Part shown: positions 10,976 to 58,709 of the stretch, piece by piece
Layout of the letters: every line of letters begins with the position of its first letter
Numbering within the stretch: position 1 is the stretch's first letter
From: Anaeromyces robustus
Taxonomy: Eukaryota > Neocallimastigomycota > Neocallimastigomycetes > Neocallimastigales > Neocallimastigaceae
Direction of reading: 5' to 3'
Length of the DNA: 64,000 nt
Assembly: GCA_002104895.1 (NCBI GenBank)
Contig: MCFG01000177.1
Coordinates: 31,001-95,000, forward strand
The notes under the pieces: model-generated
Told to the model about the DNA's origin: nothing
The model's input: only the letters and a program-made list of their open reading frames with translations
Databases searched by the model: none
Program-made: the position numbers and the translations under genes

Positions 10976-13900
10976 ATGCTATCAAATTTTATGAAATCTT
11001 CAAAATCAAAACCTAAACAAAAGACTCCTATGTCTGGGATACGGTCTGTAGGTTCATCATCATCTTCTGTAATAGATAATAATAATTCAACGCAACAAAA
11101 TATACAAAATATAGCTTTTGGATCTTCAACGACATTAAACAATTTTGATAATACTAATAATAATCTTCACAATTTTGAAAAATCTAAAAGTTTACCTCGT
11201 TCTAATTATAGTAATTATAATTCTTCTGTCAATCAAAATGTTATTAGTAATCGTTACAGTTTAGATAGTAAACCAAGTGTAAAATCGCGTTCTTCAATAA
11301 ATAGTAATTATGAAGAAAATTATTATTCATGTAATTATAATCAACCTATATCTTTAAGTCAAAGTAATTCTATGATATCATCAAAATCATCAGGATCTAC
11401 AATAAAACATTATACTCCAAATAATTCAAATTATAGTTTAAGAAGTAGTACTTATAATTCTGGGAAAACTATGAAATATAATGAAATGAATCAAAACAAT
11501 ATACCTTCATCTCCAGTAACTAAAAATGATAATTATACTCATTCAAAAGTTACAAATACAATTATAACATCACATCCTTTACCTTCATCATCATCTACTT
11601 TTAATAATATGAAAGGACTAAATAATATACCACCAACTCCTATAAGAACAGTTAGTAATCATCATTCACATAAAACTCCAAAGAAAACATCAAAGTCTTC
11701 ATTAGAAGTATCAATGACTTCTCCAAATACTACAAATAGTACTTCAAATGATTATAGTAAACCTTCAAAATTAGATGATTCATTAATTTCTTTAAATACT
11801 TTGGAACTTTATAATCTTTATTCAAATGCTGCGGCTTATTATAATTCTACAAGTTCTTTTGATTTAGATACATCTCCAAAACTTACGGATAATTTCCGTT
11901 CACTTAGTCGCAACTTTAAAATGAAAGAATACAAAACCAACACAAATACTAATTTATCTACCACTGCATCAAGATCTAATCGTTCAACTAGTATTGATAA
12001 TATATTAGATAATGAAGAATCAGATTTGATGTCTACTGTTCTTAGTGCAGGAATGAATACTGAATCAGATTCTGATGATAATGAACCATTATATAATACT
12101 TATTATCGTTCTAGAAATAAGTATAAAGCACCTTCAATATCATCCAATTCTACTTCAAATTATACATCAATTTCAACTAATAGTCAAACTTCTAATCGTT
12201 TATATCCAAATGGTTATTACGCCTCAAATTCTTCTTTATCTACTAATTTAAGTAATACAAGTGGAACAAATAAAATTTCTTCTAAACATTTAAGTCCAAA
12301 TAAAACATCAGGTGGTATAAATCGTCGTATAAGTCGTAGTCAACCTAATATGGCTCTTCCTACTACTTCTAATGCAACTAAAGCTTATGCTTCTTTATTA
12401 AGAAATTATAAATATACAGATAGTTCTAATACTACATCGGATACTCTTATAAATACAACCCCTTCTATTAACTTTACTAATATTCAAGAATTAAAACCTG
12501 TATCAGCTAGTCCTGCTTCAAAAGTAATTACATCTAGAAAAGATTCTAATAATATGGCTAATAATCAACGTCCACAAATACCACAATCTTCTAATATTTA
12601 TGATACATCACTTACTCCATCATTATTAGATACTCAAATTAATATACAACCTCAAACTACATCTACTAATAATAATACTAATGTTAATGATACTTTAGGA
12701 TTATCATCTCAATATCAGTCAATATCTAAATCTCAACTTCAAACTCAAAATCAAATTCAAACTAAAACTCAAAATCCAAATTCAAATTCAAATTTAAATC
12801 CAAATCAAACACAATTATATTCTCAATCACAAACACTTCAAATTCCTGTTATTATAGGAAAACGTAAACAATCAATTGGATGTAGTAAAAGGTTTAAAGA
12901 ATACAAGAGGGGTTCAAATTCATCAGCTACATCAAAATCTTCTTCGGTTTGTAGTTATAAAAGTGATAATAAAAATAATATTAGTGATCATCAACAATAT
13001 ATAAAGAAATCAGATTATGTTGATAATAAGGATATTTCATCTACATCTTTGGATTCTAAAAATACCAGCCATTCTAAAAATGAAGTTTCTACCTCATCAA
13101 TTGAATCTATACCTATATCAGAATCAAAACAACCATTACAACAACAAACAAAACCTTTATCTCCTCAACTTAAACTTTTACGTAATATTTCAAATTCTCC
13201 TATTTTAAAAAATCAACAAATGATTTCTTCACCTCAATTAGCATCTCAAAAACCATTACCTCCATCACCTCTTTTATCTCAAAAGCCGTTACCTTCACCA
13301 CTTTTAAATCAAAAGCATCAACCTTTAGCATCACCTCAATTAGCAAGTCAATCACCATTACAAACCTACGTTACATTAGATACATTTGATAATGATACCT
13401 CTTCTGAAAGTAATAGTCTTAAATTTTCAACAACTCTGGAAAATAATAATAAACATATTATTACTCATGCAAAAACTTATCATTCTTCTACACCATCTTC
13501 TCCTTCTTTTGCAAATGTATCTAATTTAAATGAAAAAGGTATTACTGGTAATAATCATACAAATACAAATACAAACTCAAATTCTGTTTTCTCATATATG
13601 TCAAATCAAGGTCCATCGCCTATTACGGCATATAATTCAAATCTTGGTAATAAATCACCATTATTGTCAGCATCTGCAAGAATTAATTCTCCAAAACTTT
13701 TAAACAATCCATTTGTTAAAAAGGATCAAGAATTACAACAACAACAAAGTTTTTTCAATCATTTAAATCATTCCTCACCAAATTTAACTACACCAACTGT
13801 ATCTGTATCCTCAAAAGTAACATCTTCTTCTAAAATGACATCACCAAAGATGACATCACCAAAAATAACATCACCAAAAATGACATCACCAAAAATGTCA

Positions 13901-16900
13901 TCACCAAAGATAACATCACCAAAGATAACATCACCAAAAATGACATCACCAAAAATGACATCTCCAAAGTTAAACTCATCAAGAATGGGTTCACCTAGAT
14001 TAACTACAACAAGATTTAGTTCTTCAATAACTAGTTCACCAAAAATTGGATATACTACTGGTGAAACTGTCAATACTAATAGGAATAATTATTCAAATAT
14101 GCCAATGAATTCATTTAATTACAAGTCATTAGCACGTACTCCTCCTATTACTGCTGTTGCAGCTATTGTTGAATCACCAGCATTATCTACATCAACACAA
14201 TCTACACCAAAAGCTTCTAATACTTTAACAGTAGTTATTCCAGATCCTCAAGAATCAACAGTTCAACAAAATGATGTTACAAATATTTGTACAATTAATG
14301 AACGTGTTTCATCATTGTATAATGTTGATCATCAACTCCAAGAACAATTACAAGAACAACTTCAAAGTGGAAGTTATGTTAAATCTAATAAATATGATGA
14401 TTTATATACTTTACCTTCATCTTTTTCTTCTACTTCATCAAATGTTCCTTATTATCATACTAATAATAGTAATACTAGTCTAAATACACCATTATCTACT
14501 AATAAAGTGTCTCCAAAGGTACAACCTTCTTTACCTTCACCAACAAATTTAATTTCATCAAAACTTGAATCAACACAACCTATATTATCAACATCAACAT
14601 CAACATCAACATCAACTCAGGGACATTTATCACCAAAACATCAAACTGCTAGTCCTACAGCAATTAATCCTTCAACAACTAGACCTTTATCTAACAATAT
14701 CAATCAATCACAATCACCTAAACTTCAACAAACTCAAGCTAGTCCTGTAATAATTCCAACACAATTTAATGATAATAAAAATGTTAAGAATTATTCAACA
14801 TTAGATCGTAGTAGACATGTTCGTCATAAAAGGAATGTTTCATTTAATGATGAAAAGAAAAAAGTTATTGAAAATAAAATTAATAATAATAATAATAAAC
14901 TTTCTCCAAGTATTAATGAAATAGAAAATGTTCAATCTTTAAATAATGAAAAACTTACTACCAATACCAATACCAATACCAATAGTAATACTAATAATAT
15001 TGAAAATCTATCTTTTCATAGTAATAACAGTAGTTATAGTGGTCAAGAAATAATTAATTATAATGGTGCAATTACAACTGCTGTAGTTAATAATAATTAT
15101 AATCATGGTAAATTTACTACTTTAGGTCGTACACATGATAATAAAACATCTAATAAAGCAATTGATTTGAATAAAGATGATATTGATGGAAAACAATTTT
15201 ATGTAAAAAGTTATAGAAAATTAAATAATAAAGAATTAAGTTATTTACAAGAAGTTTCCTATAAACAATTAAAGCAAAGTTTCCCAGAAAGTTCAGGATT
15301 TATTAAAAAGGATGTTTTAAAAGGATTACAGCAAAAAGCTAAAAATAAGGGTAGTTCACCAAAATGGTGGTCTTATTGGAAAAAAGAATCAAAAAATTCC
15401 ATGTCTTGTTCTGTTTTTAAAACTCCATTAAATACTTCAATATTATATGCTTCTGTTTCTTTAGATTCTGTAGATGAAGAAAATCCAAGAAGAATTCCAA
15501 TTATTGTTTATAAATGTGTTCAATATTTGAAAAAATATGGTTTAAAGAAGGAAGGTTTATTCAGAGTTAATGGTAATGAAAGAAGAATTAAAGCATCTGT
15601 TAAAACATTTGATGAACCACCTTATCTTGGTCCTGATACTTTTGAAAATTTAAGTGTATATGATATTGCTGGTCTTTTAAAACTTTATATACGTGGATTA
15701 CCAGATTCATTATTCCCTAGTGAAATTTATTTACCTTTATTAAAATATTATAGTAAATATACTAATGAAAATGATAGAATAAAAATTTTACAACTCTTTT
15801 TAATGATGTTTCCAAGAAATTATTTGATTTTATTAGAATATTTATTTGATTTATTTAATTTAATTACTCAATATAGTGAATATAATCAAATGACTTCCGG
15901 TAATTTAGCAAAAATATTTGCTCCAAATTTAATAAAACCAGCTCCACCTTCAGAACCATCTTTAAAAGATTATGAAATTACATCTTCAATTATTCAATTT
16001 ATGATAGATCATGATGAAGATTTCCATATTTCAAGAACTGATCATATATTATTAAAAATTCTTCAAGAAGTACCAGAATTTGGTAATAAGAATCATAAAA
16101 TTAAAAAATCTAATATACGTATACCATTTATGGCCATTAATAATATATTTAGTGATAGTGAAGAAACAGATGATGATAGAAGTTCAAGATATAGTGGTGA
16201 ATATAATAAATATTCACCACAATTAGCTAATAATAATAATAGTAATAATAATGCTATTACAAAATTTTCACCAAATCTTTCAGGTGATGAAAAAGTAAAT
16301 TCTAGTAATAATAAGGTTAATCTACTTTCAAATATAATTTCTAATAATTTAAATATTAAAATTAATAAAAAACAAGTTGGTAAAACAGTATATAATAATG
16401 TATCATTGCCATTAACTCCACCACAATCACCATCATCACCTACTCAATCTTCTTCAACATTTAATACTATAAAATCACAATTAAATGCTCTTTCTTCATC
16501 AGTTACTTCATCAATTATTTCATCCGTTAATCCAGTTGATACTAATGCTAATGATTTAACTATGAGTAGTAATGAGGAAGGTAAAAGCTTTAGTAATTTA
16601 AGTACAAGAAAAAAATCAACTTCTTTTTCAATAATTAGACCAAATATTGAACAAGTTGTAAATTCCAATTCCAATTCCAATTTAAATTCAGATTCAAATT
16701 CAACATCTAAACCTACTACTACAATAACAACGACAACGACAACAACAGCAACTACTACTACTACTACTACTACTACTAATAATAATAATAATATTGGAAT
16801 ATCAAATTCTCCAACACCAGTGATATTGAATGGTGAAAATATTGTATCAACTCCTTTAAATCCTAATAGTGTAAGTCCAATTCCAAGTGATGATATTATA

Positions 16901-17077
16901 ATGAGACATGAAAGTATTCATGGAGTTCAACGTAGTAACAGTAAAACTATTATAAGAAAAAATACTGTAGAAGAAAATGATAATAGTAGTAGAAGTCCAA
17001 GTAATGATATGAGTATTGAGCGTAATAATTCTTCATATTCTTTAAATAAACTTCGTCAAACAGCTAGTGAAATTTAA
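10976..17077 (+). CDS. Large RhoGAP-domain protein (2033 aa)
   Basis: Single-exon gene for a GTPase-activating protein of the Rho family, expected to switch off Rho/Rac/Cdc42-type GTPases that control polarity and the actin cytoskeleton. About the first 1400 residues are low-complexity Ser/Thr/Asn/Gln/Pro-rich sequence, probably disordered. They include nine 5-residue repeats of the (M/I)TSPK type at residues 954-998 and many other Ser-Pro sites. A basic helical stretch (about 1390-1475, with LQEVSYKQL) leads into the RhoGAP domain at about 1478-1690. The catalytic arginine finger is Arg1530 in GLFRVNG, and the conserved Asn is Asn1651 in NLAKIFAPNLI, so activity should be intact. The C-terminal tail is again low-complexity, with a poly-Thr tract and Asn runs. 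Met at 10976 follows an A-rich leader. The subfamily cannot be set from the sequence alone; the domain somewhat resembles ARHGAP6/36-like proteins. The sequence shows the domain; the target GTPase is unknown. Confidence 0.93.
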   Translation: MLSNFMKSSKSKPKQKTPMSGIRSVGSSSSSVIDNNNSTQQNIQNIAFGSSTTLNNFDNTNNNLHNFEKSKSLPRSNYSNYNSSVNQNVISNRYSLDSKPSVKSRSSINSNYEENYYSCNYNQPISLSQSNSMISSKSSGSTIKHYTPNNSNYSLRSSTYNSGKTMKYNEMNQNNIPSSPVTKNDNYTHSKVTNTIITSHPLPSSSSTFNNMKGLNNIPPTPIRTVSNHHSHKTPKKTSKSSLEVSMTSPNTTNSTSNDYSKPSKLDDSLISLNTLELYNLYSNAAAYYNSTSSFDLDTSPKLTDNFRSLSRNFKMKEYKTNTNTNLSTTASRSNRSTSIDNILDNEESDLMSTVLSAGMNTESDSDDNEPLYNTYYRSRNKYKAPSISSNSTSNYTSISTNSQTSNRLYPNGYYASNSSLSTNLSNTSGTNKISSKHLSPNKTSGGINRRISRSQPNMALPTTSNATKAYASLLRNYKYTDSSNTTSDTLINTTPSINFTNIQELKPVSASPASKVITSRKDSNNMANNQRPQIPQSSNIYDTSLTPSLLDTQINIQPQTTSTNNNTNVNDTLGLSSQYQSISKSQLQTQNQIQTKTQNPNSNSNLNPNQTQLYSQSQTLQIPVIIGKRKQSIGCSKRFKEYKRGSNSSATSKSSSVCSYKSDNKNNISDHQQYIKKSDYVDNKDISSTSLDSKNTSHSKNEVSTSSIESIPISESKQPLQQQTKPLSPQLKLLRNISNSPILKNQQMISSPQLASQKPLPPSPLLSQKPLPSPLLNQKHQPLASPQLASQSPLQTYVTLDTFDNDTSSESNSLKFSTTLENNNKHIITHAKTYHSSTPSSPSFANVSNLNEKGITGNNHTNTNTNSNSVFSYMSNQGPSPITAYNSNLGNKSPLLSASARINSPKLLNNPFVKKDQELQQQQSFFNHLNHSSPNLTTPTVSVSSKVTSSSKMTSPKMTSPKITSPKMTSPKMSSPKITSPKITSPKMTSPKMTSPKLNSSRMGSPRLTTTRFSSSITSSPKIGYTTGETVNTNRNNYSNMPMNSFNYKSLARTPPITAVAAIVESPALSTSTQSTPKASNTLTVVIPDPQESTVQQNDVTNICTINERVSSLYNVDHQLQEQLQEQLQSGSYVKSNKYDDLYTLPSSFSSTSSNVPYYHTNNSNTSLNTPLSTNKVSPKVQPSLPSPTNLISSKLESTQPILSTSTSTSTSTQGHLSPKHQTASPTAINPSTTRPLSNNINQSQSPKLQQTQASPVIIPTQFNDNKNVKNYSTLDRSRHVRHKRNVSFNDEKKKVIENKINNNNNKLSPSINEIENVQSLNNEKLTTNTNTNTNSNTNNIENLSFHSNNSSYSGQEIINYNGAITTAVVNNNYNHGKFTTLGRTHDNKTSNKAIDLNKDDIDGKQFYVKSYRKLNNKELSYLQEVSYKQLKQSFPESSGFIKKDVLKGLQQKAKNKGSSPKWWSYWKKESKNSMSCSVFKTPLNTSILYASVSLDSVDEENPRRIPIIVYKCVQYLKKYGLKKEGLFRVNGNERRIKASVKTFDEPPYLGPDTFENLSVYDIAGLLKLYIRGLPDSLFPSEIYLPLLKYYSKYTNENDRIKILQLFLMMFPRNYLILLEYLFDLFNLITQYSEYNQMTSGNLAKIFAPNLIKPAPPSEPSLKDYEITSSIIQFMIDHDEDFHISRTDHILLKILQEVPEFGNKNHKIKKSNIRIPFMAINNIFSDSEETDDDRSSRYSGEYNKYSPQLANNNNSNNNAITKFSPNLSGDEKVNSSNNKVNLLSNIISNNLNIKINKKQVGKTVYNNVSLPLTPPQSPSSPTQSSSTFNTIKSQLNALSSSVTSSIISSVNPVDTNANDLTMSSNEEGKSFSNLSTRKKSTSFSIIRPNIEQVVNSNSNSNLNSDSNSTSKPTTTITTTTTTTATTTTTTTTTNNNNNIGISNSPTPVILNGENIVSTPLNPNSVSPIPSDDIIMRHESIHGVQRSNSKTIIRKNTVEENDNSSRSPSNDMSIERNNSSYSLNKLRQTASEI
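13835..13969 (+). repeat. 15-bp coding repeat encoding (M/I)TSPK x9
   Basis: Nine consecutive copies of a 15-bp unit inside the RhoGAP gene give residues 954-998, each with a Ser-Pro dipeptide followed by Lys (one copy MSSPK). Such arrays are candidate multisite targets for proline-directed kinases (CDK or MAPK). Confidence 0.9.
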
Positions 17078-25379: not shown

Positions 25380-25469
25380 TAATGATAAGCGTAAATTATA
25401 ATTTTAACCAATCATTATGTAAGATAAAGACTCAAAAAATATTTAATAATTTAATAAGTTTTAAAAAAG

Positions 25470-25477
25470 TATAAATA
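25470..25477 (+). promoter_or_regulatory. TATA-like box of U4 copy 1
   Basis: TATAAATA 40 bp before the inferred RNA start. The flank downstream of it (ctaaaaatttcaacagccaa) differs from the other copies. Confidence 0.6.
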
Positions 25478-25509
25478 TCTAAAAATTTCAACAGCCAAGT
25501 TAAGTCTTT

Positions 25510-25652
25510 AACCTTGCACTGGAGCATATCCATACCTGTGAAGTAATAACTGAGGCTGGATTATTGCTGATTGAAAACTTTTAACCAATCACCGCGAGAC
25601 GACTACCCTTTGAGGAGTCGGCTTCGCAATTTTTGGAGCGACCTCTGGTCGA
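25510..25652 (+). ncRNA. U4: U4 spliceosomal snRNA, copy 1
   Basis: U4 pairs with U6 and, with U5, enters the spliceosome as the tri-snRNP; it is unwound from U6 before catalysis. The features in order are: a 5' end AACCTTGCACTGG that can form U4/U6 stem II; a 5' stem-loop with k-turn parts (CCTGTGAAG ... CTGAGG) that would bind the Snu13/15.5K protein; ATTATTGCTGATTGAAAAC, close to the human sequence here and able to form U4/U6 stem I; a central stem (GCGA ... TCGC); the Sm site AATTTTTGG at 25628-25636; and a 3' hairpin CGACC-TCT-GGTCG. The exact ends are inferred by alignment with remembered human U4. The loop of the central stem differs slightly from the other copies (ctacccttt). Confidence 0.93.
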
Positions 25653-26342
25653 TAATTATAATATTTAATTTAAAAATTTCTATTAATTAAATAATAATAT
25701 TAATTTATTATTAATATTAGATTTTGTTGATTTATACATTTATATATTTATTTTTTTATATAAACATATTTTTTTACTAATTAATATGTATGTATATGAG
25801 ATAAATATAAAAAAATTTATTAGTATTAATTTTCATTTACAATATTGGAATATTATTAATATTTGGTAGTAATATATTATAACTTGTGGATGAACTATTA
25901 AAAGGCATATAAGTAATTATTACAATATTTAAAAAAAAATGTGTAACATAAAATTCAATATATATTTTACTACAACTAATTAATATTTAATTATTTATAA
26001 TATAAATTGCAAATTATACTACAAATATTATATTAACTAGTGTGAAGTTTCTCATAATAAAAAAAAAATGTTAAATAATACACTAAATAAAGCATAAATA
26101 ATAATTTTTTAAATTTTTTTAATTGTTTTAAATATTATATAATAATATAATTCAATGATTCAGTTTAAAATACTTCTTATAAAATAAAATTTTAGTATAT
26201 AATATAAATTAGTTACAATATATATTACTGTAATAATTATTCCAGTAATTTAAAAATAATAAGTATTATGAATAATTATAAATATTTATACCAATTAGAG
26301 AATATCAAATATCATTTAATATATATTATTTATTATTTAATA

Positions 26343-26399
26343 ATTAAATTATTAAAATTATATCAATTGTAGAATTTTAAGCTAAACCATCGAATTATT
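26343..26399 (-). repeat. Invertible 57-bp block, copy 2 (inverted)
   Basis: This block reads ATTAAATTATTAAAATTATA and so on: the reverse complement of the block upstream of copies 3, 4, 6 and 7. The DNA on both sides is in normal orientation. Confidence 0.85.
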
Positions 26400-26426
26400 T
26401 CAAAATTTTGAAAAAAAAATAAAAAG

Positions 26427-26434
26427 TATAAATA
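26427..26434 (+). promoter_or_regulatory. TATA-like box of U4 copy 2
   Basis: TATAAATA, followed by the conserved tctcaagatttct, 42 bp before the inferred RNA start. Confidence 0.65.
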
Positions 26435-26468
26435 TCTCAAGATTTCTCTTTATTTTTTTAAAATCTTT

Positions 26469-26613
26469 AACCTTGCACTGGAGCATATCCACACCTGTGA
26501 AGTAATAACTGAGGCTGGATTATTGCTGATTGAAAACTTTTAACCAATCATCGCGAGAAGACAAACTCTTTGAGGGAGTCGGCTTCGCAATTTTTGGAAC
26601 GACCTCTGGTCGA
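26469..26613 (+). ncRNA. U4: U4 spliceosomal snRNA, copy 2
   Basis: Same structure as copy 1: stem II strand, k-turn 5' stem-loop, TTGCTGATTG stem I strand, Sm site AATTTTTGG at 26589-26597 and 3' hairpin. It shares CCACACC in the 5' stem-loop with copy 5. Small changes in the central stem (TCGCGAGAAGAC) distinguish it; the GCGA/TCGC pairing is kept. Probably functional. Confidence 0.92.
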
Positions 26614-27807
26614 TAATTATAATATTTAATTTAAAAATTTTTTTTAATTAAATAATAATATTTAATTAAATTTATTTTTATTTATTAGTTTCTTTTGATT
26701 TATATATTTATACGGTAATTTTTTTTCATATAAAAATATTTTTTATAATATATATGAGATAAAATAGAAAAGAATTATAATATTAATATTAATTTTTATT
26801 TACAAAATTGGAATGTTATTAACTTTTGGTATTATTATAATGGATATTAGAATATAAATCGAAAATTATACTACAAATATTATATAACTAATATATTTTG
26901 TAATAGAGTAAAAATAAAGTAATAAATAATAATTTTTTAAATTTTTTAATTGTAAATTTGATACTATATAATAATATAGTTCAATGATTCAGTTTAAAAT
27001 ACTTCAACTGAAATTGATATATATTTAGTTTATATTTATTAAATTAATTGAATAATAATATTCAATTAATTTATTTTTATTTATTAGTTTCTGTTGATTT
27101 ATATGTTTATAGATTTTTTTTTTTATTTAATTTATTTGTTTATTTATACGTTTATTTTTGTATATATAAACATACTTTTAATTAATTTATGTATATATAT
27201 ATGAGATAAAGAAAATTATAATATTACTATTAGTTTTTATTTATAATGTTAGAATGGTATTACTATCTTTTGATATTAAAAAAATATAAATTGAAGATGA
27301 ACTAAAATGTTAAATAGATAGTTTTACAATATTTTAATAAAATCAATTTTAATAAAATAAATTTTAATAAAATGAATCATATATTAAAATATATTGTGTA
27401 ACATAAAGTTCAATATATCTTTTTTACTACTAATTAATACTTATTTAATATTTGTCGTATAATTTTCAATTATATTCTGAGTGAAGAACAATTTGTCTTT
27501 TATAAAAAAATATAGAGTTAAAATAATACATTAAATAAATTAATAAATAATAATTTTATGAGTTTTTTTTAATTGTTATAAATTCAATACTATTATATAA
27601 TAATATAGGTTTCAATGGTTCAGTTTAAAATACTTTTTATATAATAAAATTTTAGTATATAATATAAATTAGTTACAATATATATTACTTTAATGATTAT
27701 TCCAGTAATTTAAAAATAATAAGTATTATGAATAATTATAAATATTTATACCAATTAGAGAATTTCAAATATTATTTTAATATATGTTATTTATTATTTA
27801 ATAATAA

Positions 27808-27864
27808 AATAATTCGATGGTTTAGTTTAAAATTCTGCAATTGGTATAATTTTAATAATTTAAT
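27808..27864 (+). repeat. Invertible 57-bp block, copy 3 (forward)
   Basis: The block starts AATAATTCGATGG and ends AATAATTTAAT, 25 bp before the TATA-like box. It contains CAATTGGTATAA, which can pair with TTATACCAATT about 60-70 bp upstream. Confidence 0.85.
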
Positions 27865-27889
27865 AATTTTGAAAAAAAAAAAAAAAAAG

Positions 27890-27897
27890 TATAAATA
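27890..27897 (+). promoter_or_regulatory. TATA-like box of U4 copy 3
   Basis: TATAAATA after a poly-A tract, 41 bp before the inferred RNA start. Confidence 0.65.
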
Positions 27898-27930
27898 TCT
27901 CAAGATTTCTCTTTATTTTTTAAAATCTTT

Positions 27931-28075
27931 AACCTTGCACTGGAGTATATCCATACCTGTGAAGTAATAACTGAGGCTGGATTATTGCTGATTGAAAACT
28001 TTTTACCAATCACCGCGAGACGACAAACTCTTTGAGGGAGTCGGCTTCGCAATTTTTGGAACGACCTCTGGTCGA
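27931..28075 (+). ncRNA. U4: U4 spliceosomal snRNA, copy 3
   Basis: All U4 elements are present, with the Sm site at 28051-28059. It has GTATATCC instead of GCATATCC near the base of the 5' stem-loop, and TTTTTACC instead of TTTTAACC after the stem I strand. Probably functional. A chance open frame crosses its promoter and 5' end and is not a gene. Confidence 0.92.
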
Positions 28076-28753
28076 TAATTATAATAATTAATTTAAAAAT
28101 TTTTTGTTAATTAAATAATAATGTTCAATTAATTCATTTTTATTTAATTTATTTATTTATTTATACGTTAATACGTTTATTTTTTTTATATAAAAATACT
28201 TTTTATAGTATATATGAGATAAAATAGAAAAGAATTATAATATTAATATTAATTTTTATTTCAATATTGGAATATTATTAATATTTGGTAGAAAAAAATT
28301 ATAAATGTGGATGAACAAATAGGTAATTATTACAAATTTTAATAAAAATATACTGTGTAACATGAAATTCAATATATATTTTATTAAAACTAATTAATAC
28401 TTATATAATATTTGTAGTATAATTTTCAATTATATTCTGAGTAAAGAACAATTAGTTTCTTATAAAAAATATATAGAGTTAAAATAATACACTAAATAAA
28501 GTATAAATAATAATTTTATGAGTTTTTTTTTTTTTAATTATTGTACATTCGATATTATATAATGGTTCAGTTTAAAATACTTCTTATATAATAAAATTTT
28601 AGTTTATAATATAAATTAGTTACAATATGTATTATTGTAATAATTATTCTAGTAATTTAAAAATAATAAGTATTATGAATAATTATAAATATTTATACCA
28701 ATTAGAGAATATCAAATATCATTTAATATATATTATTTATTATTTAATAATGA

Positions 28754-28810
28754 AATAATTCGATGGTTTAGTTTAAAATTCTACAATTGGTATAATTTTA
28801 ATAATTTAAT
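28754..28810 (+). repeat. Invertible 57-bp block, copy 4 (forward)
   Basis: Same orientation as copy 3, with CTACAATTGG instead of CTGCAATTGG. Confidence 0.85.
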
Positions 28811-28832
28811 AATTTTAAAAAAAAAAAAAAAG

Positions 28833-28840
28833 TATAAATA
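28833..28840 (+). promoter_or_regulatory. TATA-like box of U4 copy 4
   Basis: TATAAATA, 45 bp before the inferred RNA start. Confidence 0.65.
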
Positions 28841-28877
28841 TCTCAAGATTTCTCATTTTTTTTTTTTTAAAATCTTT

Positions 28878-29022
28878 AACCTTGCATTGGAGCATATCCA
28901 TACCTGTGAAGTAATAACTGAGGCTGGATTATTGCTGATTGAAAACTTTTAACCAATCACCGCGAGACGACAAACTCTTTGAGGGAGTCGGCTTCGCAAT
29001 TTTTGGAACGACCTCTGGTCGA
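28878..29022 (+). ncRNA. U4: U4 spliceosomal snRNA, copy 4
   Basis: Complete U4 core with the Sm site at 28998-29006. Its 5' end reads TTGCATTGG where most copies have TTGCACTGG; copy 7 shares this. The change lies in the strand that pairs with U6 in stem II. Probably functional if G-U pairing is tolerated there. Confidence 0.92.
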
Positions 29023-29734
29023 TAATCATAATATTTAATTTAAAAATTTTTTTGAAAGTAGTAATGATAAATTTATTCGTTTTTGTTTATTAGTATTTGT
29101 TGATTTATATGTTTATAGATTTATTTTTTATATATAAACATATTTTTTACTAATTAATAGGTATGTATAAGAGATAAGTATAAAAAAAATTATAATATTA
29201 GTGTTAATTTTTATTTACAAAATTGGAATATTATTAATATTTGGTAGTAATTTATTATAACTTGTGGATGAACTATTAAAAGGCATATAGGTAGTTATTA
29301 CTATATTTTAATAAAAATATTTGTGTAACAAAAAATTCAATATATATTTTATTACAACTAATTAATACTTTATTATATATATTATAATATAAATTGAAAA
29401 TTATACTACAAATATTATATTAACTAGAGTGAAGTTTCTCATGAAAAAAAAAAAAATAATAATGTTAAAATAAAGCATAAATAATAAATGTATAAATTTT
29501 TTTTTTTAATTGTTGTAAATTCGATATTATATAATAATATAATTCAATGATTCAGTTTAAAATACTTCTTATAAAATAAAATTTTAGTATATAATATAAA
29601 TTAGTTACAATATGTACTACTGTAATAATTATTCTAGTAATTTAAAAATAATAAGTATTATGAATAATTATAAATATTATACCAATTAGAGAATTTCAAA
29701 TATCATTTTAATATATATTATTTATTATTTAATA

Positions 29735-29792
29735 ATTAAATTATTAAAATTATACCAATTGTAGAATTTTAAGCTAAACCATCGAATTAATT
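29735..29792 (-). repeat. Invertible 57-bp block, copy 5 (inverted)
   Basis: Inverted as in copy 2, with one extra A near its right end. Confidence 0.85.
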
Positions 29793-29812
29793 CAAAATTT
29801 TGAAAAAAAAAG

Positions 29813-29820
29813 TATAAATA
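29813..29820 (+). promoter_or_regulatory. TATA-like box of U4 copy 5
   Basis: TATAAATA, 41 bp before the inferred RNA start. Confidence 0.65.
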
Positions 29821-29853
29821 TCTCAAGATTTCTCTTTATTTTTTAAAATCTTT

Positions 29854-29999
29854 AACCTTGCACTGGAGTATATCCACACCTGTGAAGTAATAACTGAGGC
29901 TGGATTATTGCTGATTGAAAACTTTTTACCAATCACCGCGAGACGACTAAACCCTTTGAGGGAGTCGGCTTCGCAATTTTTGGAACGACCTCTGGTCGA
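29854..29999 (+). ncRNA. U4: U4 spliceosomal snRNA, copy 5
   Basis: Complete U4 core with the Sm site at 29975-29983. Shares CCACACC with copy 2 and GTATATCC with copy 3. The central loop is one base longer (ctaaacccttt). Probably functional. Confidence 0.92.
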
Positions 30000-30690
30000 T
30001 AATTATAATAATTAATTTAAAAATTTTTTGTTAATTAAATAATAATGTTCAATTAATTCATTTTTATTTAATTTATTTATTTATTTATACGTTTATACGT
30101 TTATTTTTTTTATATAAAAATACTTTTTATAGTATATATGAGATAAAATAGAAAAGAATTATAATATTAATATTAATTTTTATTTCAATATTGGAATATT
30201 ATTAATATTTGGTAGAAAAAAATTATAAATGTGGATGAACAAATAGGTAATTATTACAAAATTTAATAAAAATATACTGTGTAACATGAAATTCAATATA
30301 TATTTTATTAAAACTAATTAATACTTATATAATATTTGTCGTATAATTTTCAATTATACTCTGAGTGAAGAACAATTTGTCTTTTATAAAAAAAATAGAG
30401 TTAAAATAATACATTAAATAAATTAATAAATAATAATTTTATGAGTTTTTTTTAATTGTTATAAATTCAATACTATTATATAATAATATAGGTTTCAATG
30501 GTTCAGTTTAAAAATTTTCTTATATAATAAAATTTTAGTATATAATATAAATTAGTTACAATATATATTACTTTAATGATTATTCCAGTAATTTAAAAAT
30601 AATAAGTATTATGAATAATTATAAATATTTATACCAATTAGAGAATTTCAAATATCATTTTAATATATATTATTTATTATTTAATTATAA

Positions 30691-30747
30691 AATAATTCGA
30701 TGGTTTAGTTTAAAATTCTGCAATTGGTATAATTTTAATAATTTAAT
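30691..30747 (+). repeat. Invertible 57-bp block, copy 6 (forward)
   Basis: Forward, with CTGCAATTGG as in copy 3, three units upstream. Confidence 0.85.
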
Positions 30748-30769
30748 AATTTTGAAAAAAAAAAAAAAG

Positions 30770-30777
30770 TATAAATA
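30770..30777 (+). promoter_or_regulatory. TATA-like box of U4 copy 6
   Basis: TATAAATA, 41 bp before the inferred RNA start. Confidence 0.65.
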
Positions 30778-30810
30778 TCTCAAGATTTCTCATTTTTTTT
30801 TTAAATCTTT

Positions 30811-30955
30811 AACCTTGCACTGGAGCATATCCATACCTGTGAAGTAATAACTGATGCTGGATTATTGCTGATTGAAAACTTTTAACCAATCACCGCGAGA
30901 CGACAAACTCTTTGAGGGAGTCGGCTTCGCAATTTTTGGAACGACCTCTGGTCGA
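30811..30955 (+). ncRNA. U4: U4 spliceosomal snRNA, copy 6 (k-turn variant)
   Basis: U4 core with the Sm site at 30931-30939. It is the only copy with CTGATGC instead of CTGAGGC in the 5' stem-loop. The changed G lies next to the tandem G-A part of the k-turn, in the helix expected to pair with CC of the other strand, so binding of the Snu13/15.5K protein may be weakened. The spacer before it is almost the same as that before copy 3. Confidence 0.9.
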
Positions 30956-31287
30956 TAATTATAATAATTAATTTAAAAATTTTTTGTTAATTAAATAATA
31001 ATGTTCAATTAATTCATTTTTATTTAATTTATTTATTTATTTATACGTTTATACGTTTATTTTTTTTATATAAAAATACTTTTTATAATATATGAAATAA
31101 AATAGAAAAGAATTATAATATTAATATTAATTTTTAATTACAATATTGGAGTATTATTAATATTTGGTAGTAATTTATTATAACTTGTGGATGAACTATT
31201 TTATATTAACTAGAATGAAGTTTCTCATGAAAAAAAAATAATGTTATAATAATACACTAAATAAAAGTATAAATAATAATTTTAAAA

Positions 31288-31320
<33 letters not shown>

Positions 31321-31546
31321 ATTGTAAATTCGATATTATATAATAATATAATTCAATGATTCAGTTTAAAATACTTCTTATATAATAAAACTTTAGTATT
31401 TAATATAAATTAGTTACCATATATATTACTGTAATAATTATTCTAGTAATTTAAAAATAATAAGTATTATGAATAATTATAAATATTATACCAATTAGAG
31501 AATATCAAATATCATTTAATATATATTATTTATTATTTAATAATGA

Positions 31547-31603
31547 AATAATTCGATGGTTTAGTTTAAAATTCTACAATTGGTATAATTTTAATAATTT
31601 AAT
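31547..31603 (+). repeat. Invertible 57-bp block, copy 7 (forward)
   Basis: Forward, with CTACAATTGG as in copy 4, three units upstream. Confidence 0.85.
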
Positions 31604-31626
31604 GATTTTTAAAAAAAAAAAAAAAG

Positions 31627-31634
31627 TATAAATA
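31627..31634 (+). promoter_or_regulatory. TATA-like box of U4 copy 7
   Basis: TATAAATA, 47 bp before the inferred RNA start, the longest gap in the array because of a longer poly-T tract. Confidence 0.6.
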
Positions 31635-31673
31635 TCTCAAGATTTCTCAATTTTTTTTTTTTTTAAAATCTTT

Positions 31674-31814
31674 AACCTTGCATTGGAGCATATCCATACC
31701 TGTGAAGTAATAACTGAGGCTGGATTATTGCTGAAACTTTTTACCAGTCACCGCGAGACGACTAACCCTTTTGAGGAAGTCGGCTTCGCAATTTTTGGAA
31801 CGACCTCTGGTCGA
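31674..31814 (+). ncRNA. U4: U4 snRNA, copy 7 (5-nt deletion, possible pseudogene)
   Basis: U4 core shortened by 5 nt: TTGCTGAAACTTTT replaces TTGCTGATTGAAAACTTTT. The loss trims the end of the U4/U6 stem I strand and the single-stranded link to the central stem. It also has ACCAGTCACC instead of ACCAATCACC. The Sm site (31790-31798) and 3' hairpin are intact. It shares TTGCATTGG with copy 4. It may be transcribed but work poorly, or be a decaying copy. Confidence 0.85.
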
Positions 31815-32221
31815 TAATTATAATAATTAATTTAAAAAATTTTTTGTTAATTAAATAATAGTGTTCAATTAGTTCATTTTTATTTAATTGATTTGTTTAT
31901 TTATATATTTATTTATACGTTTATTTTTTATATATAAAAATACTTTTTATTAATTAATGTGTATATATATGAGATAAAATAGAAAAAAATTATAATATTG
32001 GAATATTATATTACCAAATATTATATTAACTAGAGTGAAATTTCTCATGAAAAAAAAAAAAATAAAATTTTAGTATATAATATAAATTAGTTACAATAGG
32101 TATTACTTTAATGATTATTCCAGTAATTTAAAAATAATAAGTATTATGAATAATTATAAATATTTATACCAATTAGAGAATATCAGATATTATTTTAATA
32201 TATATTATTTATTATTTAATA

Positions 32222-32278
32222 ATTAAATTATTAAAATTATACCAATTGTAGAATTTTAAGCTAAACCATCAAATTATT
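32222..32278 (-). repeat. Invertible 57-bp block, copy 8 (inverted)
   Basis: Inverted as in copies 2 and 5, with CCATCAAATTATT where they have CCATCGAATT. Confidence 0.85.
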
Positions 32279-32302
32279 TCATAATTTTGAAAAAAAAAAA
32301 AG

Positions 32303-32310
32303 TATAAATA
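32303..32310 (+). promoter_or_regulatory. TATA-like box of U4 copy 8
   Basis: TATAAATA, 43 bp before the inferred RNA start; the following element reads tctcaaaatttcg. Confidence 0.6.
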
Positions 32311-32345
32311 TCTCAAAATTTCGCATTTTTTTTTTTAAAATCTTT

Positions 32346-32491
32346 AACCTTGCACTGGAGCATATCCATACCTGTGAAGTAATAACTGAGGCTGGATTAT
32401 TGCTGATTGAAAACTTTTTACCAATCACCGCGAGACGACAAACTCTTTGAGGAAGTCGGCTTTCGTAATTTTTGGAACGACCTCTGGTCGA
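32346..32491 (+). ncRNA. U4: U4 spliceosomal snRNA, copy 8 (last of the array)
   Basis: U4 core with the Sm site at 32467-32475. Just before the Sm site it reads GGCTTTCGTAA instead of GGCTTCGCAA, which changes the last G-C pair of the central stem to G-U and adds a T in the bulge. The 3' hairpin is intact. Beyond it the conserved flank continues only to about 32515, where the array stops. Confidence 0.9.
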
Positions 32492-32520
32492 TAATTATAA
32501 TAATTAATTTTAAAAATTTT

Positions 32521-33686: not shown

Positions 33687-35663
33687 TTAATCTCTTCTTC
33701 TAGTTGTAGTGGTATGTTTTTTAGATTTAGTAGAACTCTTTTTAGTTGAAGAAGAGGTTCTCTTTTTGGATTTAGTAGAACTCTTTTTAGTTGAAGTAGT
33801 TCTCTTTTTTGTGGAAGAAGTTCTCTTTTTAGTAGTAGTGGTAGTTCTCTTTTTAGTAGTGGTGGTAGTTCTCTTTTTAGTAGTAGTAGTTCTCTTTTTA
33901 GTAGTGGTGGTAGTTCTCTTTTTAGTTGTAGTAGTAGTTCTCTTTTTAGTAGTGGTAGTTCTCTTTTTAGTTGTAGTGGTAGTTCTCTTTTTGGTTGTAG
34001 TAGTTCTCTTTTTAGTTGTAGTGGTAGTTCTCTTTTTAGTTGTAGTAGTAGTTCTCTTCTTGGTGGTAGTACTCTTTTTGGTGGTAGTACTCTTTTTGGT
34101 GGTAGTACTCTTTTTGGTGGTAGTAGTTGATTTAGATTTAGTAGTTGGAGTTGGTTTAACTTCAGTTTCAGATGGAGTTGGAGTTGGTTCAACTTCAGAT
34201 TTATAATTTTTGAATACTATTTGAATAAAATCGTTGAAACCTTTGTACCAAACAGGGAAATCATGAGTTCCATCAATGTATGTATAATCAATAAAGTTTT
34301 CAACTCTATTCCAAGTCTTCATAGTTTCTACAAATGGTGGGTAGGAATCCCATACAATATGGTCATGATCACCACAAATCATATAAAGGTTATGAATTGG
34401 AAGACCAGTGAATTCTGGGTTTGCTTCAACACTTGAAATAAGTTCTTTATCTTCTACAAACATATAAGCAGAGAAACCAGCGAAATTACTGATAAGGTCA
34501 AGACATTCCTTAATACCAATACTGAAAGTTTGACCACCACCCATAGAAAGTCCAGCTAAAGCAACATTATCACGACCTTCCTTTATATTAAAGTTAGCTT
34601 TAATGTATGGAAGTAAATCATTTCTAAGTTCACCTTTAAATGCGTGGAAACCATTGATATCATTTCCAGCACCGTTTGGTCCCCAATTTTTGCTTGCAAC
34701 ACCTGTTGCTGCAACAAGAACAAACTTTTCGGCATCACCATTTGCCATGGCTCTGTCCATGTATCCTTTAATTTTACCACCACGACCTTTGTTAGAAAGA
34801 CCCCATGTGTTTTCATTTTGACCTCCTCCGTGAAGTAAAATAATTAATGGGTATTTTTGATCTTTTTTGGAAGCATCATATCCAGCTGGAAGGTAAACCC
34901 AAGCATGCTTTTTATATCTATCAGCATCAGTTAAAGCTGATTCATCAACAGTATAATCTCTTGTTGGATAATTGATTTCAAGAACAGTACCACGTTGACT
35001 GTCATTTAAACCATCATCAAAAGCTTTATCTTCAGCAGCTCCTTTTTTTGGGTTGAATTTAACATTCTTTAATTGTACTTTAATTTGGTCACCATCCTTA
35101 TTACCTCTTTGATAATCATTAAATTTAACTGCAAAACCTAAAATTGAATCATAGTCAGAACTGGCAATGATTTTGTCTGCAAAATCAGAAGGAATCTTAA
35201 TGTTATATTTTAAAGTTCCAGAAGATGCTTCTGAATCAAAATATTCAAGATCTTCATATCCACCAAACATACCTGTTGAATCCCATGGAAGAATTCTCAT
35301 AGCGAATCCTGGATTCATAGCATCAGCACTCCATTTTCCTTCAATAGATTCATAATCCATTTCAATATCAATAGATTCATAATTTGCAATATTAATTTCT
35401 TCTTTGGTTGATTTAACATAAAAAGCAACACCACCTCCAGCACCATTAGAAGCTGTAGCAACCCAAGAAACAGAACCATCTTTTTCTTCTACAATATCAT
35501 TAGCAAAAGAACCATCTTCAAATACTGAAAATTTTTCTTTAGTATCACGTAAAGTAATACCATAAGTTGGTTCTGATTCTACAGTGCTACAAGAAACAAT
35601 TGATAATGATAACACTGAAAGTGCAAGTGTCCAACTAAATTGTTTTTTCAATTTTTGGAACAT
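33687..35663 (-). CDS. Secreted CE1-family esterase with basic Thr/Lys-rich tail
   Basis: A 658-aa alpha/beta-hydrolase of the Esterase-D/feruloyl esterase group (CAZy CE1), expected to remove ferulate or acetate from arabinoxylan outside the cell. Order: signal peptide (about 1-25); a beta-rich, CBM-like module (about 30-205, with YESIDIEMDYESIEGKW); catalytic domain (about 225-488) with oxyanion motif HGGG at 278-281, nucleophile Ser373 in GLSMG, probable Asp432 or Asp434 in GDHDH, and His467 in GTHDF; then a 150-residue Thr/Lys/Arg/Ser tail made of TTTTKKR-type repeats. There is no dockerin and no cysteine in the tail, unlike many gut-fungal cellulosome enzymes. The signal peptide ends in SIVSC, which also fits a bacterial lipobox. 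The gene has no intron and visibly more G+C than its surroundings. Together these suggest transfer from rumen bacteria, as is known for CE1 enzymes of these fungi. Exact substrate is unknown. Confidence 0.92.
   Translation of the reverse strand: MFQKLKKQFSWTLALSVLSLSIVSCSTVESEPTYGITLRDTKEKFSVFEDGSFANDIVEEKDGSVSWVATASNGAGGGVAFYVKSTKEEINIANYESIDIEMDYESIEGKWSADAMNPGFAMRILPWDSTGMFGGYEDLEYFDSEASSGTLKYNIKIPSDFADKIIASSDYDSILGFAVKFNDYQRGNKDGDQIKVQLKNVKFNPKKGAAEDKAFDDGLNDSQRGTVLEINYPTRDYTVDESALTDADRYKKHAWVYLPAGYDASKKDQKYPLIILLHGGGQNENTWGLSNKGRGGKIKGYMDRAMANGDAEKFVLVAATGVASKNWGPNGAGNDINGFHAFKGELRNDLLPYIKANFNIKEGRDNVALAGLSMGGGQTFSIGIKECLDLISNFAGFSAYMFVEDKELISSVEANPEFTGLPIHNLYMICGDHDHIVWDSYPPFVETMKTWNRVENFIDYTYIDGTHDFPVWYKGFNDFIQIVFKNYKSEVEPTPTPSETEVKPTPTTKSKSTTTTKKSTTTKKSTTTKKSTTTKKRTTTTTKKRTTTTTKKRTTTTKKRTTTTTKKRTTTTKKRTTTTTKKRTTTTTKKRTTTTKKRTTTTTKKRTTTTTKKRTSSTKKRTTSTKKSSTKSKKRTSSSTKKSSTKSKKHTTTTRRRD
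33700..34130 (-). repeat. Coding repeat of the esterase tail (TTTTKKR units)
   Basis: Imperfect 18-24-bp units of ACT/ACC-rich codons followed by AAA AAG AGA encode the basic tail. Length variants (TTTTT, TTTT, SST) point to replication slippage. On the + strand this gives a spurious Val/Leu/Phe-rich open frame. Confidence 0.9.
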
Positions 35664-57106: not shown

Positions 57107-58709
57107 ATGTTTGACTATCAATTTGAATGGAAAAATCCTTCAGCAGGAAAGGTTTTTGTTACTGGTAATTTTGATAATTGGCAACAAGTAAATGAATTAG
57201 AAAAACAACCAGACGGTACTTTTAAGAAAGTAGTACCTTTACCATCTGATGAACAAAAAATTCTTTATAAATTCGTTGTAGATGGTAATTGGGTTATTGA
57301 TAATACTATGCCAGTAGAAGATGATGGCATGGGAAATCAAAATAACTGTCTTAATATTCCACTTGAAGTAAATTTTTTTTTATTTTTTTTTTTATTTTTT
57401 TTTTAATATATTTTATATATATAAAATATATAAATATATATTTATATATTTTATTATCATTTTATCATATTATTAAAAATACATTTATAAATTATTTGTT
57501 ATATAAATATCAAATCAATATAAAAAAAAAATTTTTTTTTCTCTTTCAACTATAAATAAAAATTAAATATTAATATCTTAAATAATTTATATATCATTAT
57601 ATTTTATAAAAATAAAGACTGCTCCTACTGTTGCAGCAGCTGCAGAAGCTGAAATGGAACAAGAAAGAATAAAGAGAGAACAAGAAGAACAAGAAAGAAT
57701 TAAGAAGGAAAAGGAGGAAGAAGAAAGAATAAAGAGAGAATTAGAAGAACAAGAAAGAATTAAGAAGGAAAAGGAAGAAGAAGAAAGAATAAAGAGAGAA
57801 TTAGAAGAACAAGAAAGAATTAAGAAGGAATTAGAAGAACAAGAAAGAATTAAGAAGGAAAAGGAAGAAGAAGAAAGAATAAAGAGAGAATTAGAAGAAC
57901 AAGAAAGAATTAAGAAGGAATTAGAAGAACAAGAAAGAATTAAGAAGGAAAAGGAAGAAGAAGAAAGAATAAAGAGAGAATTAGAAGAACAAGAAAGAAT
58001 TAAGAAAGAATTAGAAGAACAAGAAAGAATTAAGAAGGAAAAGGAAGAACAAGAAAGAATTAAGAAGGAAAAGGAAGAACAAGAAAGAATTAAGAAGGAA
58101 AAAGAAGAACAAGAAAGAATTAAGAAAGAATTAGAAGAACAAGAAAGAATTAAGAAGGAAAAAGAAGAACAAGAAAGAATTAAGAAGGAAAAAGAAGAAC
58201 AAGAAAGAATTAAAAAGGAAAAAGAAGAACAAGAAAGAATTAAAAAGGAAAAGGAAGAACAAGAAAGAATTAAGAAGGAAAAAGAAGAACAAGAAAGAAT
58301 AAAGAAGGAAAAAGAAGAACAAGAAAGAATTAAAAAGGAAAAGGAAGAACAAGAAAGAATTAAGAAGGAAAAAGAAGAACAAGAAAGAATAAAGAAGGAA
58401 AAAGAAGAACAAGAAAGAATAAAGAAGGAAAAAGAAGAACAAGAAAGAATAAAGAAGGAAAAAGAAGAACAAGATTTAAGAAGAAGACAACTTGAGAGTA
58501 TTAAGAATGCTCTTCGTGAAGATGATGAAGTTCAAGAAAGAAAAGTAGAATCATCAAAACCAAAACCAAAATCAAAACCAAAATTCAATAATCCATCTGT
58601 AAAAGATGAACTTGAATTTAATGAAAATGCATCAAAGTATGCTTTCTATGGATTAGCTGCTTTAGCTGTAGTAGTTGCATTGGTATATATAATATTTTTA
58701 TCTCATTAA
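57107..58709 (+). CDS. Tail-anchored CBM48 protein with long ER/K helix
   Basis: Two exons, 57107-57367 and 57618-58709, GT/AG intron in phase 0, product 450 aa. Residues 1-85 are a CBM48 (AMPK-beta-like glycogen-binding) domain. The sugar-contact residues known from AMPK beta line up: Trp25 (GNFDNW), Lys55 (YKF), Trp62 (VDGNW) and Asn80 (NQNN). An Ala-rich joint (TAPTVAAAAEAE) leads to about 27 tandem 10-residue units (QERIKKEKEE type, 100-372), a composition that forms a stable single alpha-helix or coiled coil. After a Lys/Pro-rich segment comes one hydrophobic helix at 428-447 (YAFYGLAALAVVVALVYIIF) with only three residues behind it, a classic tail anchor. The N-terminal position of the domain resembles yeast Mdg1/Crp1. 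Inference: it links glycogen or another glucan in the cytosol to an ER or other membrane, as STBD1 does in animals with a different layout. Confidence 0.88.
57654..58470 (+). repeat. 30-bp coding minisatellite, about 27 units
   Basis: Unit caagaaagaattaagaagga plus aaaggaagaa encodes QERIKKEKEE. The early units vary (KRELEE, KKELEE) in a higher-order order; the later ones are almost identical, a sign of recent expansion or homogenisation. Confidence 0.95.

Follow-up and report, generated by a model that had tools for sequence, protein, structure and literature searches.

A 64,000-nucleotide stretch of the genome of the gut fungus Anaeromyces robustus (GCA_002104895.1, contig MCFG01000177.1, positions 31,001 to 95,000; hereafter the window) carries a tandem array of eight U4 small nuclear RNA (snRNA) genes. 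The array is genuine and holds all U4 snRNA genes detected in the assembly. With moderate confidence, we interpret it as a recombining array composed of one canonical gene, copy 1, and seven further copies of uncertain expression.

Extent and copy number of the U4 array

Searching the window with the Rfam covariance model for U4 (RF00015) yielded eight matches on the + strand between positions 25510 and 32489, each spanning the full model (1-138 of 138) and scoring 68.5-91.8 bits against a gathering score of 46, which confirms an initial annotation of eight direct U4-like copies on one strand. A chance origin of these matches is excluded by their E-values (2.8e-19 to 4.2e-13). The starts of successive copies are separated by 959, 1462, 947, 976, 957, 863 and 672 bp, and the copies are as follows.

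25510..25650, + strand: U4 copy 1; 91.8 bits; no lesion in the elements examined
26469..26611, + strand: U4 copy 2; 81.6 bits; one central-stem pair lost
27931..28073, + strand: U4 copy 3; 85.3 bits; no lesion in the elements examined
28878..29020, + strand: U4 copy 4; 83.4 bits; no lesion in the elements examined
29854..29997, + strand: U4 copy 5; 87.1 bits; no lesion in the elements examined
30811..30953, + strand: U4 copy 6; 79.6 bits; G-to-U change breaking a pair of the 5' (kink-turn) stem-loop
31674..31812, + strand: U4 copy 7; 68.5 bits; 5-nt deletion, stem I reduced from 8 to 6 pairs
32346..32489, + strand: U4 copy 8; 80.0 bits; one base inserted and a G-U pair formed at the foot of the central stem

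Across the 70.2-Mb, 769-contig assembly, no U4 match was found outside the array among the best 41 of 3033 candidates scored with the covariance model, and copy 1 used as a DNA query recovered the same eight sites and none besides (8/8 candidates scored). The description of a head-to-tail cluster consisting of U4 only is upheld. Searches of the U4 core against the genome_contigs and viral_contigs collections returned no match in either. As the array (C87:56510-63489) lies in the interior of a 135-kb contig, both of its ends have been captured. In DNA of 15% GC, the eight genes are pairwise 89.6-98.6% identical with gaps counted, and are separated by 2-9 substitutions plus gaps.

Elsewhere in the assembly we identified at least two U1 genes (on two contigs), at least four U2 genes (three in tandem on contig C28 and one on C16), and at least two genes each for U5 and U6, together with at least one U3 gene and at least four signal recognition particle (SRP) RNA genes above the cut-off plus two below it; these counts for repeat families are lower bounds, with the best 26-48 candidates scored per family. 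Of the spliceosomal RNAs, U4 alone was found in eight copies, and the cluster is indeed unusual, as initially supposed, when set against the counts for U1, U2, U5 and U6 in the same genome.

Promoters, 3' boxes and integrity of the RNA

Upstream regions were compared across 16 canonical small-RNA genes of this genome (two U1, four U2, two U5, two U6, one U3, four SRP and U4 copy 1), with positions counted from the start of the Rfam match as the assumed transcription start. These genes are partly related to one another, three of the U2 genes being tandem duplicates and two of the SRP upstream regions being alike. The motif CCAATCA was found at a fixed distance upstream of all 16, at -99 to -105 in ten genes presumed to be transcribed by RNA polymerase II (Pol II) and at -89/-90 in six presumed RNA polymerase III (Pol III) genes (U6 and SRP). 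In the non-U4 genes (L009-L018, L043-L047) it is followed some 22 bases further on by a looser second half (TCA...AAA). A TATA string occurs at -35 to -43 in 10/10 presumed Pol II genes. Five of the six presumed Pol III genes have one at -25 to -31, the exception being SRP_c, in which the pattern used found none. The corresponding elements of U4 copy 1, together with its 3' box, are located at:

25408..25414, + strand: CCAATCA of U4 copy 1, at -102; matrix score 17.0
25470..25476, + strand: TATA box of U4 copy 1, at -40; counterparts in copies 2-8 at -41 to -47
25667..25677, + strand: 3' box AATTTAAAAAT of U4 copy 1, at +17

The promoters of the array had been described as similar, and this holds for the TATA region, which is common to all eight copies, but not for the standard upstream element, which is present in copy 1 only: CCAATCA is missing from the 500 bp upstream of every one of copies 2-8 (0/7). 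A promoter matrix trained on 12 non-U4 genes (leave-one-out range 15.9-31.5) gave the same division, with copy 1 scoring 17.0, inside that range and matched by none of 2000 background windows, and copies 2-8 scoring 3.6-7.6, values equalled by 2.5-11% of those windows. Tandem arrangement alone does not explain the loss of the element, because the three tandem U2 genes all retain CCAATCA. We also considered a diverged working element in copies 2, 5 and 8 (CCAATTG plus a second half-site), and set it aside as its matrix scores are at background level; such an element may still operate.

Outside the array, CCAATCA occurs once in the 113,720 strand positions of the window. Genome-wide, CCAATCA followed by TATA at the distance seen in these genes gave 372 matches and the reversed control 233, so that these two elements alone do not mark snRNA genes. 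Two side observations concern these motifs. The sequence GTATAAATATCTCAA of the U4 TATA region was also found upstream of an apparent protein gene on the reverse strand (L039, contig C255). The two SRP matches below the cut-off (L048, contig C249; L049, contig C692) look identical, their upstream 150 bp included, and CCAATCA is missing from both (2/2); they perhaps represent a duplicated or allelic contig end.

Downstream, the 3' box AATTTAAAAAT starts 14-25 bases past all eight U1, U2 and U5 genes, and lies at +17 in U4 copies 1-6; copies 7 and 8 have a form of it lengthened by one base. The exact sequence is missing after the U6 (0/2), SRP (0/4) and U3 (0/1) genes, U3 having by eye a form with one mismatch near +34. 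The three tandem U2 genes (L040:2893-4769, contig C28), which lie 830-850 bp apart, each possess both the upstream element and the 3' box. Background occurrence of AATTTAAAAAT outside the array amounts to 5 in 113,720 strand positions of the window. The same sequence was also observed some 220 bases upstream of copies 2-8 (at 26247, 27707, 28654, 29639, 30590, 31448 and 32125), within their upstream module, and by itself is thus no proof of a 3' end.

A search of the genome for the Beta-Casp domain gave three matches at two loci. A frame of INTS11 type (L080:868-3354, contig C76) matched INTS11 structures with 721.7 bits and CPSF73 with 319.5, and the second locus (contig C296) showed the opposite preference (CPSF73 185.7 bits, INTS11 84.6). 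Neither a third Beta-Casp locus nor a fourth (INTS9, CPSF100) emerged, and other Integrator subunits were not searched for. On these scores the genome encodes the Integrator nuclease INTS11, which, by analogy with animals, would act at the AATTTAAAAAT box. The SNAPC3 profile (PF12251) had no match here, but neither did it match in any control genome. To our knowledge, yeasts have neither Integrator nor a 3' box. The portions of PMC7471841 and PMC6368637 available to us contain nothing on Integrator in fungi.

The integrity of the RNAs themselves was assessed by computing their pairing with the organism's own U6. Stem II comprises 13 pairs in 8/8 copies, its variable bases 10 and 16 retaining pairing as G-U, and the Sm site AATTTTTGG and the 3' hairpin are likewise intact throughout (8/8). 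Stem I has 8 pairs in seven copies and 6 in copy 7, which has suffered the 5-nt deletion; the 5' (kink-turn) stem-loop adopts one common predicted fold in seven copies and is broken by the G-to-U change in copy 6. The central stem lacks one pair in copy 2; that of copy 8 is altered at the foot by an insertion and a G-U pair. No lesion was seen in the RNA elements examined of copies 1, 3, 4 and 5. Single-sequence folds of the whole U4 RNA were uninformative (z -0.18 to -1.80). The changes in copies 6 and 7 are likely to be damaging. Hence the set of U4 elements initially assigned to every copy stands for stem II, Sm site and 3' hairpin, and falls one copy short for each of stem I and the kink-turn stem-loop; the array does not consist of eight equally intact genes, two being lesioned (6 and 7) and two mildly altered (2 and 8).

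Array history and competing explanations

Comparison of the upstream regions of copies 2-8 revealed a segment, approximately 59-69 bp long and located roughly between -130 and -60, which has one orientation in copies 2, 5 and 8 and is reversed in copies 3, 4, 6 and 7, with 91-95% identity across orientations in 12/12 comparisons.

26339..26402: invertible segment of copy 2, + orientation
27807..27868: invertible segment of copy 3, - orientation (reversed)
28751..28814: invertible segment of copy 4, - orientation (reversed)
29731..29794: invertible segment of copy 5, + orientation; carries CCAATTG at -99
30683..30751: invertible segment of copy 6, - orientation (reversed)
31544..31607: invertible segment of copy 7, - orientation (reversed)
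32218..32286: invertible segment of copy 8, + orientation; carries CCAATTG at -104
26830..27143, + strand: remnant unit; distal spacer (26830-27005) joined to U4 downstream flank (27012-27143)

The order of orientations along copies 2-8 (+ - - + - - +) suggests a higher-order repeat of three units, matched by the identities between -110 and -1 of copies 2 and 5 (98.1%), 3 and 6 (97.2%), and 4 and 7 (99.1%). Against such a repeat, identity over the same interval is also 98.1% for copies 3 and 4 and for copies 4 and 6. Further upstream, copy 7 is nearest to copy 5, and the downstream flanks group copies 3, 5 and 6 (98.9-99.4%). On these conflicting affinities the history of the array is mosaic, as expected from unequal crossing-over and gene conversion. 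The remnant unit occupies part of the long spacer that separates copy 2 from copy 3 and has no gene or proximal promoter between its two parts; its downstream part (27012-27143) matches the downstream flank of copy 2 at 113/138 positions with a score of 136, the best of 1000 background pieces scoring 98. Given this gene-less remnant beside eight copies, at least nine units once existed. The array has the features of head-to-tail units that exchange sequence, namely a shared strand, mosaic identities, the inversion and a remnant unit. As to homogenisation, the genes fall within the range of identity given above, and the spacers have large private deletions.

Substitution rates along the unit were derived from pairwise alignments, with gaps, of copies 2-8. 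They amount to 0.033 per site in the gene, 0.037 in the approximately 136-bp upstream part tested and 0.033 from the TATA box to the start, rising downstream to 0.065 (+1..+45) and 0.114 (+46..+180), or 0.050 and 0.083 when copy 8, whose flank is largely unlike the others, is left out. The gene and upstream module form one well-kept block, which may result from selection or from the length of converted tracts. Purifying selection on copies 2-8 was not adopted as a conclusion, since the comparison of rates fails to separate it from gene conversion.

The following course of events would account for the array. The starting point would have been the duplication of a U4 gene under the standard promoter (CCAATCA near -100, TATA near -40, 3' box near +17). 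The duplicate would then have acquired a different upstream region, and this second type of unit would have been multiplied by unequal crossing-over and gene conversion, along with the inversion of a short segment at the element's position. Judged from sequence features, most of the U4 probably comes from copy 1, and expression of copies 2-8, in which TATA box, RNA and 3' box are retained, is probably weak, uneven or absent; for that reason the array would raise gene number more than U4 output. Several observations weigh against this interpretation. Copies 5 and 8 retain a CCAAT at -99 and -104, respectively (CCAATTG), and another CCAAT lies at -172 to -183 in 7/7 of copies 2-8; copies 3, 4 and 5 are free of lesions in the elements examined; both variable stem II bases still pair as G-U; and gene and upstream module are equally little varied, and both could be under selection in active genes.

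In a possible, though rather doubtful, alternative, most or all copies are active, copies 2-8 using a second type of promoter (TATA combined with the shared upstream module), and the array, as initially proposed, serves a high U4 demand or protects the supply against mutation. Such a function would fit the retention of stem II, Sm site and 3' hairpin in every copy, of TATA in 8/8 and of the exact 3' box in 6/8, and an upstream module that varies as little as the gene. It is opposed by the absence from copies 2-8 of an element found in 16/16 canonical genes, by the lesions in copies 6 and 7, and by the lower numbers detected for U6 and U5, its partner RNAs (at least two genes each). Chance recombination as the cause of the amplification agrees with the observations at least as well as high snRNA demand or mutation buffering. 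It is improbable that the locus acts as a dosage switch, with copies 2-8 as a second U4 class under its own promoter and the orientation of the approximately 65-bp segment setting the output of each; were this so, the fungus would maintain a set of U4 variants that differ in expression level.

We regard it as very improbable that most of the array arose in assembly, by the stringing together of alleles or of a single copy. The identical-looking SRP matches on C249 and C692, alike also over their upstream 150 bp, indicate that duplicated stretches may exist in the assembly, but the eight copies differ by 2-9 substitutions pairwise, have seven different spacings, and show inverted segments as well as deletions private to single spacers, and a single 135-kb contig contains them all. 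We reject the idea that the copies spread by reverse transcription, as pseudogenes, or as a mobile element, no supporting evidence having been found: the units include promoter and downstream flank, U4 DNA is found nowhere else in the assembly, and the upstream module reaches 291-486 bits within the array but at most 61.7 bits in those 23 of its 34 matches that lie elsewhere.

U4 acts one-to-one with U6 and U5, and eight U4 genes stand against two detected for each of these partners. Owing to the copy-specific bases in each gene (gene alignment columns 10, 16, 24, 45, 61-65, 74, 91 and 110), sequencing reads would suffice to distinguish the copies in use, and copy usage would show whether the upstream element is needed and whether extra snRNA genes alter snRNA supply.

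Among ATG frames with a minimum length of 110 aa, those closest to the array on either side encode a RhoGAP protein (10976-17077, + strand) and an esterase (33687-35663, - strand; PF00756). The esterase has a long tail of threonine/lysine/arginine repeats, and its relatives comprise proteins of Piromyces, Neocallimastix and Anaeromyces as well as one from a Treponema metagenome genome; the gut-fungal relatives and the GC content of 15% agree with an anaerobic gut fungus as host. Further along, a frame of 351 aa (57654-58709, + strand) has no Pfam match; charged E/K/R/Q/I repeats make up almost all of it, and its C-terminus is hydrophobic.

Comparison with known snRNA gene systems

According to the portions of the sources available to us, tandem snRNA arrays are already known from human U2 (PMC13083260) and the U1-U4 pairs of Arabidopsis (PMC545797). 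The human RNU2-1 array, whose U2 copy number per chromosome ranges from 6 to above 80, likewise consists of one spliceosomal RNA gene repeated head-to-tail at a single locus (PMC13083260); unlike it, the present array concerns U4, has eight diverged copies with unlike promoters, and is found in a fungus. Arabidopsis also has several U4 genes, 11 in number and mostly in U1-U4 pairs, of which there are seven, and its snRNA promoters combine an upstream element with a TATA box; a U4-only array is not described in the available part of that paper (PMC545797). Among fungi, an account of the mucoralean Lichtheimia, as far as its accessible text goes, did not find the usual Pol III promoter motifs, and reported U4 as missing from the assembly yet present in the reads (PMC4133162). 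Within the literature searched, most subscription journals being outside its reach, we found no U4-only array with such a division of promoters and no paper combining 'U4 genes', 'tandem' and 'snRNA', and for Neocallimastigomycota together with snRNA only a paper on goat rumen acidosis.

The closest parallel in gene architecture is offered by the snRNA genes of plants and animals, with their upstream element or proximal sequence element (PSE), TATA box, 3' box and Integrator. Here too, presumed Pol II and Pol III genes share one element at a fixed distance, a 3' element follows presumed Pol II snRNA genes only, and INTS11 is encoded; the element itself is CCAATCA, that of plants being RTCCACATCG in the part of PMC545797 available. 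Taken together, the shared element, a distance that differs with the presumed polymerase, the 3' box and the encoded INTS11 suggest an animal- or plant-like snRNA gene system in gut fungi.

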